DNA of 37,341 bases from Patescibacteria group bacterium (GTDB taxonomy: Bacteria; Patescibacteriota; Patescibacteriia; Patescibacteriales; BS150m-G62): NCBI GenBank assembly GCA_016784175.1, contig JADHVC010000009.1:1-37341 (forward strand), read 5' to 3'. The translations under genes and the position numbers were made by a program. Below are positions 2,915 to 7,913 of the stretch, piece after piece (position 1 is the first letter of the stretch; every line of letters starts with the position of its first letter). The notes under the pieces were generated by a model, which worked only from the letters and a program-made list of their open reading frames with translations, had not been told where the DNA came from and searched no databases.

Positions 2915-3376
2915 TTATTCAATAATTTTTACTTGAACATTAACCATTAGTGCACCCCTTGCATTTGTGCAATTAGCTGATTTTTTCGATAATACTTTAA
3001 GTTTATATTGCTTTTCAGGATCCAAGGAAACTTTATTAAGTGCATGTAAAAAATTCATCGTTAACTTGCCTTGAAAATCTGGGTCGCTTTCACTATAAAG
3101 AGCTTGCAACCCAACTTCTGCAACACCCATACTATTCGTCCCCGTTAATTCCTGCGATTCTGTTTCTTCTTGCACTAACTTAGCTTTTATTAGCCCATAT
3201 CTTACACCTTTGTATTCAAAACACCTCATACTACAATAATTCAATTCACAAGTATATTCTACTTTTTCTTTTGGCGTAAATTCTGGTATAATTATTTTTG
3301 GTGTCTCCCATCCTTTTTTTTGTTCGCAAGTAATAGCCATCTGGCCACCTATAAGTTGACGGAATTCAAGACCCAT
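2915..3376 (-). CDS. Hypothetical protein, 153 aa, Cys-containing
   Basis: Intact ORF with its own downstream terminator; no family recognised. Confidence 0.6.
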   Translation of the reverse strand: MGLEFRQLIGGQMAITCEQKKGWETPKIIIPEFTPKEKVEYTCELNYCSMRCFEYKGVRYGLIKAKLVQEETESQELTGTNSMGVAEVGLQALYSESDPDFQGKLTMNFLHALNKVSLDPEKQYKLKVLSKKSANCTNARGALMVNVQVKIIE

Positions 3377-3510: not shown

Positions 3511-4158
3511 TTAGACTAACCCATCAGAATTAATTACCAACATGTGTTCATTCTCTAAAACATCATACAAAAAGACATCAGTCATACTCTTCCTATATTT
3601 AAACTCACGCTCACTCATACATGTATAATTTATCTCCCTACCTAAATCACACTCATAATTACTTAAGACTTTTACCAACTTATCTCTATTGATCTCTCCA
3701 ACTATCAACAAATCTACAGGAGCCTGCTTATTATTCATAAATAAACCAGAAAGTATTAATACCTTTAAATCTCCCGCTTTTTTTAAATCATCAACAAAAT
3801 CATGTTTATATAACACATGTGATTTGACAATTAACGCTCTTATTTCTTCAAATAAAGCAAAACTAGTATTCACTCTATAGTATTTATGATCCTGTAACCC
3901 CTTTGCTTTTTGCACCTTTCCTATTGCCTCCTTCTTGTTCGACCTATCTTTATCCACAGCATCAATGTAAGATTCTAATAAACTCAGCTTCTCAAGGTTT
4001 TCCAGTTCTTTTTTGACCGGACCGAGTTGTAAGCCGAGATCCTTAGTAAGCTGACGAACACTAAAGCTTTTTTCACAATTCACTAGGAATACCTTTAACA
4101 ATTTTACTCTCACTTGTGATCCAAATAATTTTGATAACATATTTAATACACTTAACAT
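3511..4158 (-). CDS. Winged-HTH protein with degenerate nucleotidyltransferase-like C-terminal domain
   Basis: N-terminal HTH pattern (SFSVRQLTKDLGLQLGPVKKELENLEKLSLL) and LKVLILSGLFMNNKQAPVDLLIVG resembling an eroded MNT-type motif. Confidence 0.55.
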   Translation of the reverse strand: MLSVLNMLSKLFGSQVRVKLLKVFLVNCEKSFSVRQLTKDLGLQLGPVKKELENLEKLSLLESYIDAVDKDRSNKKEAIGKVQKAKGLQDHKYYRVNTSFALFEEIRALIVKSHVLYKHDFVDDLKKAGDLKVLILSGLFMNNKQAPVDLLIVGEINRDKLVKVLSNYECDLGREINYTCMSEREFKYRKSMTDVFLYDVLENEHMLVINSDGLV

Positions 4159-4217: not shown

Positions 4218-6563
4218 ATGTACTATAAACTATCACCATTAATATTAACACCAGGTCAAAATTCTAATTTTATATCAGAAGTCTATGTAACTCAACCTGA
4301 TTCCCGAAAAGAAGCAGTCGCGGGAAGAGCTTTTATTGTAATAGAAATAGAATCAAGAAAGGCGGAGGACTTAAAGATTGTAAATTTTATCATCGAGAGT
4401 TTTTGTAATAATTATTATGAAAACGATAAAATTCTACTTAGAGAAAAAACAAAAGCAATTTTCATAGAGCATATTTTTGAATCAGCACTAGCAAATACAA
4501 ATAAAAAATTATTGGAATTTTTGCATCAAGAAAAAATTAAATTTAATCCTGAATTTATTAGCGCGACAATAGGCGTAATATTTGAGAATGATATTCATTT
4601 TGCTAATATTGGTAAAAATAAAGCACTATTGATCTACAAGGATAAAAAAGAAGATGTATATAAGATCGCCAATGTAACCGATCACACAACTAGTGGTGGA
4701 GAAAAAAGACAACACATTAATGTAGCGAAACTATTTTCTAGTGTAGTAAGTGGTAAAATTCCGAAAAACGGATATTTCATATTTTCTAATGAAGCTCTAC
4801 CAGAATACATCTCGAATTCACAATTAATAAAAGTTATAACAACATTGCCGCCTATATCAGCAACAGAACAAATGAAGAAAACTCTTTCCAATATAAATAA
4901 CTATATTCCTTTTCTAGGTTTAATTATAAAAAATACTTACGGAACATCAAAAGAAGAACAAAGTATACAGTCATACAGTGAATTAAATCATAACAAATTG
5001 GACTACAAACAAAATTCTCACATCAGTAATATTGAGGAATCCACAGAAGAAATACTTACAACCAAGGGAACCATTAATTTTAAGAAATATTTAAATATAA
5101 TTATTAATTGGATAATATCTGCAAAGGACTATTTATTGCACAAAAAACCAAACAACTTAAAAATATTTCACTTAAAAGACAAAATATTCTTCAAAAAAAG
5201 AGCAGCGAATTTTTCGCTTAATAAGACTAGCGCAATATTAAAAGATATAGCTAGTTTAATTATTCAGTCATTAAAATACATAGCGCAATTATTAAAAAAA
5301 CCGTTCAGTAAAGCAAAACAAGAAGATTACAGCAGTTTAACAAGTAAAATAAAAATCAGCGCACTTAGAAATAGCAGCAAACTATCTAATCCTAGAGAAG
5401 CAATCTCAATGCTCACCAACAAGGTAGTTTCATCAAGCACAAAAAGCAAAGTCTTTGGATTAAGTATTGGTGTTTGCGTCCTGCTATTAATGTTAAATAT
5501 AGACCGCGTTGAAGAGAACAATCAAGCAATAGCTGTTATCGATAATAGTGTTGAAATATTACAAAAAATATCACAAAAACAAAATCAAATAGAGGCAAAT
5601 CTTCTTTATAACAATGAAAACAATGCAAAGAATATTCTAGCTGAAATTACTGCTCTAATCGGAGAACTATCAATAGATACCCAAGAAGAAAATGACAAAT
5701 ATGCATCGATCCTTGAAACACATAATAAACAGCTTGATAAAATTAGACACGCTAAAGACATCGATACAGCAAAAGAAATTTCTAATTTCAGTGAAATAAA
5801 CAAGGAAGCCGATCCGATCAATATCATAATGTCTAATAACGTTATATTTGCTAACGACTCTAAACAAAAAACAATTTATACACTTGATCTAAAGAATAAC
5901 TTAAAAACTGCAATCATTGACATAAAAGAACCCATTGACAACTTAAAATATCCCATCTTAAATACAAACAACAATGATCTTTATTACTTAAACGACAAAA
6001 AAAGTATCATTAAGTTTTCAACAAAGGATAATGAGATATCTAAATTATCAATTAACCTTGAAAATGTAAACTACGATTCTATTAAAGGAGGGGCTGGTTT
6101 TGGATCATATATATACTATGTCTCGAGGGCAGACAACCAAATATTCAAATTTAGCCCTAAGAACGGCGGGTTTTCATCAGGACAAAAATGGATTAAGGAT
6201 GAAAAAGTTGATGTAAGCAATGCAATCGACATGGAGATTGATGGTCATATATATGTACTTAAAGCTAATGGAGAAATTTTAAAATTACTAAAAGGTAAAG
6301 CTGAAGATTTTACTTTAGATATAGTTGAACCAGAACTAAAGATGGCTACAAAATTCTACATATCAAAAGAACTTAACTATGTATATATTCTAGACCCATT
6401 GCAAAAAAGAGTTGTTGTATTCAACAAAAAAGGAGAATTTATTGCTCAATACACATCTAATAATTTCAGTAACCTTAAAGATTTTATAGTCGACGAGCAA
6501 AACAATATCCTATATCTACTTGACACCAGTTCTGTCTATAAAATTAGTGCAACGCACTTGTAG
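4218..6563 (+). CDS. PP2C/PPM-like domain membrane protein with C-terminal beta-propeller-like repeats
   Basis: 781 aa; N-terminal phosphatase-like fold pattern, central TM (SKVFGLSIGVCVLLLMLNI), C-terminal YILD/YLLD repeat units. Confidence 0.5.
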   Translation: MYYKLSPLILTPGQNSNFISEVYVTQPDSRKEAVAGRAFIVIEIESRKAEDLKIVNFIIESFCNNYYENDKILLREKTKAIFIEHIFESALANTNKKLLEFLHQEKIKFNPEFISATIGVIFENDIHFANIGKNKALLIYKDKKEDVYKIANVTDHTTSGGEKRQHINVAKLFSSVVSGKIPKNGYFIFSNEALPEYISNSQLIKVITTLPPISATEQMKKTLSNINNYIPFLGLIIKNTYGTSKEEQSIQSYSELNHNKLDYKQNSHISNIEESTEEILTTKGTINFKKYLNIIINWIISAKDYLLHKKPNNLKIFHLKDKIFFKKRAANFSLNKTSAILKDIASLIIQSLKYIAQLLKKPFSKAKQEDYSSLTSKIKISALRNSSKLSNPREAISMLTNKVVSSSTKSKVFGLSIGVCVLLLMLNIDRVEENNQAIAVIDNSVEILQKISQKQNQIEANLLYNNENNAKNILAEITALIGELSIDTQEENDKYASILETHNKQLDKIRHAKDIDTAKEISNFSEINKEADPINIIMSNNVIFANDSKQKTIYTLDLKNNLKTAIIDIKEPIDNLKYPILNTNNNDLYYLNDKKSIIKFSTKDNEISKLSINLENVNYDSIKGGAGFGSYIYYVSRADNQIFKFSPKNGGFSSGQKWIKDEKVDVSNAIDMEIDGHIYVLKANGEILKLLKGKAEDFTLDIVEPELKMATKFYISKELNYVYILDPLQKRVVVFNKKGEFIAQYTSNNFSNLKDFIVDEQNNILYLLDTSSVYKISATHL

Positions 6564-7187: not shown

Positions 7188-7715
7188 TTACGCTTTTTTT
7201 TCTTCAATTGCCTTCAAGACATTTACTAGATTTCTTATATTTCCAGCTAATACATTAACGAAACCACTAATTGGTGCGTTTATTGAGCCAACTATCTTAG
7301 CATATAACTCTTGCTTGCTTGGTAATAAGGCCAAAGCTTCAACTTCCTTTGCTCCAATATATTTACTCTCCAATATTCCTCCAATAAAACTCATCTTCTC
7401 TGGTATTTGTAACTTAAATTTAGCAACAATTTTAGCTGGTGCTACTTCATCTTCATATCCAAGCACAGCAGCCACCTGATCTTTATTTGAGCTAAAATCT
7501 ACCTCTGCTAGATTGTTATTCTTTAAAGATATATTTAAAAGCGTTTTCTTAGATACAATGTATTCTGAAGCCTCACTTCTCAACTCATTCCTTAGGGTTT
7601 CATTTTCAACTACTGTTAATTTATTAAAATTAACAAACATAATTGATTTTGCATCTTTTATCTTACTTGTTAAATTATCTATAATAACTTTTTTCTGATC
7701 TCTTGTTTTTGCCAT
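7188..7715 (-). CDS. rplJ: Ribosomal protein L10
   Basis: MAKTRDQKKVIIDNLTSKIKDAKSIMFVNFNKLTV...; start trimmed from the ORF-track 7778 because upstream sequence is the leader/terminator. Confidence 0.93.
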   Translation of the reverse strand: MAKTRDQKKVIIDNLTSKIKDAKSIMFVNFNKLTVVENETLRNELRSEASEYIVSKKTLLNISLKNNNLAEVDFSSNKDQVAAVLGYEDEVAPAKIVAKFKLQIPEKMSFIGGILESKYIGAKEVEALALLPSKQELYAKIVGSINAPISGFVNVLAGNIRNLVNVLKAIEEKKA

Positions 7716-7735: not shown

Positions 7736-7759
7736 AAAAAAAATCTGTGTCACCACAGA
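7736..7759 (-). terminator. Intrinsic terminator in the rplJ leader (attenuator)
   Basis: Minus strand TCTGTG-GTGA-CACAGA-TTTTTTTT, GNRA-type loop. Confidence 0.75.
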
Positions 7760-7860
7760 AAATAAACATCTCGACCAAGGGATAATATACCCCATGATAG
7801 CTTACCTCGACAGATCTTACACAATTAAAATTTGTTGTCTGTTGTCTGTGGCTCCCTATT
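7760..7860 (-). ncRNA. L10-leader-like ribosomal autoregulatory RNA
   Basis: Minus strand CCACAGACAACAGACAACAAATTTTAATTGTGTAAGATCTGTCGAGGTAAG resembles the bacterial L10 leader consensus and lies directly upstream of rplJ-rplL. Confidence 0.65.
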
Positions 7861-7885: not shown

Positions 7886-7913
7886 ATCTTATCGCATTAT
7901 TAAATTTTGTCAA
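7886..7913 (-). promoter_or_regulatory. Putative sigma70-type promoter for rplJ-rplL
   Basis: Minus strand TTGACA - 16 nt - TAAGAT, overlapping the ruvX stop region. Confidence 0.6.

Follow-up and report, generated by a model that had tools for sequence, protein, structure and literature searches.

The leader of rplJ in the window (the whole stretch of 37,341 nucleotides analysed here, which its sequence places in the Patescibacteria) very probably encodes an autogenous transcription attenuator of rplJ-rplL, most likely an RNA switch that stops transcription when ribosomal protein L10 is in excess; L10 as the ligand, the termination event, the start site and the direction of control in vivo are parts of this reading that we infer. 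Its computed support comprises the individual elements, covariation within the aptamer, covariation between the aptamer edge and the terminator arm across the Patescibacteria, mutual exclusion of the alternative structures, and switching in silico. In the Patescibacteria, a group of mostly uncultured bacteria in which, to our knowledge, little is known of gene regulation, an antiterminator that covaries with a protein-binding site gives direct evidence from evolution that an RNA switch exists, and the feedback it implies for ribosome stalk supply can be tested. Within the open-licence papers searched we found no study of an L10 attenuator in Patescibacteria, and the main texts of a 2010 survey of premature terminators (PMC2965389) and of a 2020 survey of leaders (PMC7247131) mention neither L10 nor rplJ.

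The nearest named records, among them two from Candidatus Falkowbacteria, share 59-63% identity with the L10 protein of the window. The genes and the elements of the leader are as follows:

8268-7900, minus strand: ruvX, upstream of the rplJ leader
7913-7886, minus strand: promoter-like site TTGACA-N16-TAAGAT (-35 at 7913-7908, -10 at 7891-7886), 10 of 12 consensus matches
7854-7802, minus strand: L10-type kink-turn aptamer, or anti-antiterminator, GAGCCACAGACAACAGACAAC...GTGTAAGATCTGTCGAGGTAA, from the RF00557 match and covariation
7852-7844, minus strand: 5' edge GCCACAGAC, the P1 5' strand plus the kink-turn loop, which is strand 1 of the antiterminator and pairs with the terminator 5' arm
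7852-7850 and 7806-7804, minus strand: aptamer helix P1, GCC with GGT
7849-7845, minus strand: kink-turn loop of the aptamer, ACA-GA
7842-7838 and 7814-7810, minus strand: aptamer helix P2, ACAGA with TCTGT
7819-7817 and 7808-7807, minus strand: UAA and GA of the aptamer
7798-7774, minus strand: linker hairpin between aptamer and terminator, predicted in folds of the window
7759-7744, minus strand: terminator hairpin TCTGTG-GTGA-CACAGA, -7.3 kcal/mol
7759-7752, minus strand: strand 2 of the antiterminator, the terminator 5' arm plus two loop bases
7743-7736, minus strand: run of eight T, the presumed termination site, from the sequence
7715-7188, minus strand: rplJ, ribosomal protein L10, 175 aa, ATG at 7715 (Pfam PF00466 Ribosomal_L10, E 4.4e-17)
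7088-6651, minus strand: rplL, ribosomal protein L7/L12, 145 aa (Pfam PF00542, E 3.6e-29; PF16320, E 3.3e-15)

In the proposed mechanism the transcript would start just before the aptamer. At low levels of free L10(L12)4, the 5' edge, GCCACAGA, would pair with TCTGTGGT (the terminator 5' arm and two loop bases), and this long-range antiterminator would enclose the inner helix of the aptamer and the linker hairpin, destroy the kink-turn and allow the polymerase to continue into rplJL. Once L10(L12)4 outnumbers its sites in 23S rRNA, it would bind and stabilise the kink-turn aptamer, which would take the 5' edge; the terminator 5' arm would then pair with its 3' arm, and transcription would stop at the T run. 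The product of rplJ is presumed to be both the protein of the regulated gene and the regulator.

The Rfam model RF00557 (L10_leader) matches 7869-7728 over its full length (positions 1-138) with 35 bits (E 3.6e-4 in 401 nt), and in the whole 1.21 Mb genome the element of the window is the best of 12 matches (E 2.7e-4; the next has 0.021). The first-pass annotation had noted a resemblance to the L10 leader here and proposed an Rfam search, the outcome of which is mixed: the match has the full span and the first rank in the genome, while the score falls short of the gathering threshold of 44 bits, so that the element is not filed as a formal member of the family. Eight of 20 rplJ loci from the same order exceed that cut-off. 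Among the 153 genomes of the phylum sample, 78 have a match with E 0.01 or better and 42 have one over the cut-off; this run used a stricter filter, and it missed the window's own genome. The features of the family are nevertheless present in sequence and covariation, namely the kink-turn stem with its conserved loop, GA, the inner helix and UAA, and the element lies within the rplJ-rplL 5' UTR and ends in a Rho-independent terminator. In a 26-row alignment that includes the window, the ten P1/P2 pairs are 89.2% paired, compared with 23-47% in slid registers, and nine of the ten show compensated changes on both sides; none of 500 shuffles scored as high on four of five measures. A search of the window's assembly for 23S rRNA, sought for comparison with the genome's own L10 site, found none. 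The RF00557 match covers the whole model, terminator included, but the structure line of this match holds the inner pairs of the aptamer and the terminator alone, without the antiterminator pairing of the window.

Of 60 genomes of the order, 53 proved to encode L10, as did 146 of the 153 in the phylum sample; the DNA before rplJ was taken from these genomes and from 79 of 80 named loci (L071, which lacks the gene start, was omitted). A simple aptamer pattern finder was dropped after 27 of 261 shuffled sequences matched at its cut-off, and a covariance model, R1, built from 26 aptamers including that of the window, was used instead. The R1 set holds 153 Patescibacterial matches of at least 15 bits that cover the whole model, window included, and the removal of 12 duplicates left 141 unique leaders. 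Excluded were matches below 15 bits, partial matches (L146, L246, L265, L266, L278, L279) and matches outside the Patescibacteria (for example L052, L054, L061, L062 and L087); as partial and low-scoring matches were omitted, the leader frequencies are slightly underestimated. In the order, 49 of the 53 genomes with L10 have a full-length R1 leader of at least 15 bits before rplJ, as have 72 of the 146 in the phylum sample, and an R1 scan of whole order genomes gave a match in 50 of 60, nearly always a single one. Terminator counts among the unique leaders depend on the detector: the loose one found 125/141, compared with 32 after shuffling, and the strict one 115/141 within 140 nt, compared with 6/141.

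The pairing on which the switch would turn, CCACAGA (7851-7845) with TCTGTGG (7759-7753) of the terminator 5' arm on the minus strand, is perfect, as the first-pass annotation had it, and the coordinates given there are exact in the sequence. Since 7 complementary nt within about 125 nt are weak evidence on their own, the case for the pairing is carried by the relatives, in which covariation of the two segments had been set beforehand as a refutation test. Related bacteria clearly keep the 5' edge and the terminator arm matched, with the pairing both conserved and compensated. The edge occurs as CCACAGA, CCGCAGA, CCATAGA, CCGTAGA, CCAAAGA, CCGAAGA, CCCAAGA, TCGCAGA and other variants, and the arm changes along with it (TCTGTGG, TCTGCGG, TCTATGG, TCTACGG, TCTTTGG, TCTTCGG, TCTTGGG, TCTGCGA). 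When arms were swapped among 125 leaders, the mean pairing score was 17.68 for cognate and 12.80 (sd 0.32) for permuted combinations, a z of 15.2 that none of 20,000 permutations reached. The excess appears separately in the order with the named loci (n=66, z 8.7) and in the phylum sample (n=59, z 9.8), and with strict terminators it is the same (n=115, z 15.2, 0 of 10,000 permutations). The kink-turn loop alone, which is unpaired within the aptamer and hence free of its pairing constraint, gives a z of 10.9. Two control segments showed no pairing excess, the apical region of the aptamer (z -0.5) and the 20 nt upstream (z -0.3).

For the column counts a TCT anchor, present at the arm in 86 of 125 leaders, was set opposite the near-invariant AGA, using near-invariant columns only. 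Columns 2-7 are then 77.3% paired, compared with 34-42% when slid, with 103 double-changed cells (12-46 when slid) and compensated changes in all six columns; columns 4-10 are fully paired in 60 of the 86 leaders. Anchoring on the last base of the terminator, without the TCT step, was dropped: the register varies, and the result was much weaker (57.7% paired vs 35-43%; 81 double-changed cells vs 49-92 when slid). On an L10 tree with 69 leaders, contrasts favoured the cognate arm in 20.5 cases and the swapped one in 1.0 for columns 3, 4, 6 and 7 (median p 2e-5), and in 15.5 vs 4.0 for the whole edge (p 0.019); these contrasts lean on weakly supported branches, as all branches were used. Independent pairs from treekit, restricted to well-supported branches, were too few to reach significance. 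The complement of the edge lies in the terminator 5' arm in 75 of 115 Patescibacterial leaders and in the loop in 17, and is shorter than 6 bp in 23. The full anchored 7-bp pairing is present in 57 of the 115 and absent in 58, and a direct copy of the edge stands in the terminator 3' arm in 19 of 57 leaders by a crude text match.

Folding agrees with this arrangement. The minimum free energy structure of the free RNA of the window (-29.2 kcal/mol) contains the antiterminator, with pair probabilities of 0.80-0.99 and a terminator probability of about 0.01; the alternative states lie at -25.9 kcal/mol for the terminator and -22.7 kcal/mol for aptamer plus terminator. Enforcing the aptamer raised the predicted terminator probability from 0.13 to 0.97. 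Taken singly, the fold of this leader is unexceptional (z -1.46). Across 115 leaders the enforced aptamer gave a gain of more than 0.3 in terminator probability in 64 and a loss of that size in none. Clean switching (below 0.2 when free, above 0.8 when bound) was obtained in 41 of the 115: 28 of the 57 in which the 7-bp pairing is complete and 13 of the other 58. With a terminator swapped in from another leader, the median terminator probability of the free RNA was 0.80, compared with 0.04 for the native one (57 leaders), and values below 0.2 were seen in 19 of 57, compared with 38 of 57 native. Strand overlap, constrained folds and covariation all make the antiterminator mutually exclusive with both the aptamer and the terminator. 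By our own energy comparison, the gap of about 6.5 kcal/mol would be within what tight binding can pay, considering the Kd of 33 nM given for L10(L12)4 of Bacillus subtilis in the available text of PMC4538822. The switch logic first proposed for this leader, in which the free RNA holds the antiterminator and a formed aptamer releases the terminator, is thus reproduced in the folding models for the window and many relatives, and its interpretation as an L10-linked attenuator is supported, with L10 binding and termination as predictions.

The attenuation step, offered in the first-pass annotation as an inference, has an experimentally established counterpart: in B. subtilis, as described in the available text of Yakhnin et al. 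2015 (PMC4538822), L10(L12)4-dependent attenuation of rplJL works by stabilising an anti-antiterminator. To the extent that this text describes it, the B. subtilis system shares with the window the genes, the kink-turn/UAA recognition hairpin, the logic of anti-antiterminator, antiterminator and terminator, and readthrough as the default. The same text places the B. subtilis antiterminator immediately downstream, with an overlap of 8 nt with the L10 site and of 5 nt with the terminator, and reports less termination when an oligonucleotide is directed at the 5' side of the L10 site. In leader L287 of B. subtilis, the fold of GAGGTGTATAT...ATATACAGCCTC has an energy of -14.5 kcal/mol, with GAGGTGTA (8 nt) and GCCTC (5 nt) as the shared segments. 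Together, the overlaps and oligonucleotide results in that text and the folding of L287 point to the 3' strand of the site as the one that forms the antiterminator. The same wiring in the window, with the 3' strand pairing with the terminator 5' arm and the complementarity of the 5' edge secondary, could claim the weak 3'-strand excess in the swap test (z 2.0 and 3.4) as well as the B. subtilis precedent, but the 5'-strand signal is far stronger (z 15.2) and the free fold of the window uses the 5' strand; we did not encounter the B. subtilis type here and regard it as very improbable. The window and most Patescibacteria instead appear to form the antiterminator from the 5' strand, so that it encloses the aptamer.

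Several Bacillota seem to share the 5'-strand wiring. In ten leaders from Bacillota and Fusobacterium (L287-L296) the terminator hairpin contains a sequence complementary to the 5' edge more often than in dinucleotide shuffles (Fisher p 1.6e-7), though the ten tests are not independent, as the edge is similar in all. The complement is strongest in Paenibacillus (10 bp), Listeria innocua (10 bp), Acetoanaerobium (9 bp) and Monoglobus; it does not reach p 0.05 singly in Agathobacter, Enterococcus, S. aureus and B. subtilis, the last with 5 bp and p 0.40. In the hairpins inspected from Bacillota and Fusobacterium the complement lies largely in or around the loop, whereas in Patescibacteria it is mostly in the 5' arm. 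We tentatively suggest, as a proposal that may well prove wrong, that the enclosing 5'-strand antiterminator is widespread and possibly ancestral in Bacillota and Patescibacteria, and that the 3'-strand arrangement of B. subtilis is a derived rewiring. If so, one conserved protein-binding aptamer would serve at least two interchangeable transcription switches, and B. subtilis, the best-studied model, may not represent the wiring of most L10 leaders.

The terminator of the window is short, with 6 bp of which three are G-C, and a terminator scan gave five sites in 3 kb, with 1.1 expected. Because ruvX ends at 7900, close upstream, the hairpin could merely be the 3' terminator of a ruvX operon, leaving the aptamer to act, if at all, on translation, as L10 does in repressing the rplJ leader of E. 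coli according to the available texts of PMC4538822 and PMC10931766. The promoter proposed in the first-pass annotation, TTGACA-N16-TAAGAT, is present as a promoter-like site at the end of ruvX, before the aptamer. Of the 141 unique leaders, 106 have a site with at least 10 of 12 matches in the 75 nt that precede the aptamer, as do 5 of 141 shuffled stretches. From the end of the -10 to the aptamer there are 31 nt in the window and a median of 13.5 nt across leaders, so the 5' edge is probably near the very start of the RNA. The same texts describe L10(L12)4 bound to an rRNA-like leader site in E. coli, to which the aptamer of the window is putatively alike; E. coli control is translational, whereas in the window the terminator coevolves with the aptamer. 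Further against control of translation, the T run ends 20 nt before the rplJ ATG, leaving the start codon outside the hairpin, and inspection of the window sequence revealed no evident Shine-Dalgarno-like sequence before rplJ. We give a terminator of ruvX little credence, slightly below the 3'-strand wiring, and retain the attenuator of rplJ-rplL.

Least probable of all is a constitutive partial attenuator or stable small-RNA element whose pairing fixes the level of readthrough without sensing L10: we infer L10 as the ligand, and in 58 of 115 leaders the anchored 7-bp antiterminator is incomplete, but the conserved kink-turn, the UAA and the compensated P1/P2 pairs match the Bacillus/Geobacillus features of L10 recognition in the available text of PMC4538822, and conservation of the site would be unexplained without L10.

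Other parts of these leaders also carry recurrent structure. The linkers of 99 leaders fold better than mononucleotide shuffles (median z -2.3). AAGATAG is common to the linkers between aptamer and terminator of Moranbacteria-type leaders (L036, L037, L039, L040, L041, L042), and a GCTA...TAGC hairpin recurs in Falkowbacteria-type linkers (10 of 115 linkers by one pattern, none after shuffling). A stretch like CTTAYAAACCAGCG...CGCT...AAAAATATG stands right before the rplJ start in L021, L022, L023, L028, L031 and L105, a second element between terminator and rplJ in one group of relatives. In L187, L219, L231, L236, L254, L255 and L238 the aptamer lies just 2-40 nt before the rplJ start and no terminator was detected, which suggests translational control in these lineages. 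One locus (L297, G029:C61:13600-17600) has near-identical L10 aptamers at contig positions 15959-16009 and 14900-14950. The additional copy lies upstream of the true rplJ leader at a distance of about 1 kb, without a matching terminator arm and directly before a reading frame broken in two, whose peptide we take to resemble a GH130-type glycosidase; it is possibly a stray duplication or an assembly artefact.

Downstream of the operon in the window, three long frames (4218-6563, plus strand; 3511-4158 and 2915-3376, minus strand) have no Pfam match at E 0.001. Directly after rplL, between it and the converging 781-aa frame at 4218-6563, a bidirectional terminator-like hairpin of 14-16 pairs with T runs on both sides occupies 6632-6597.
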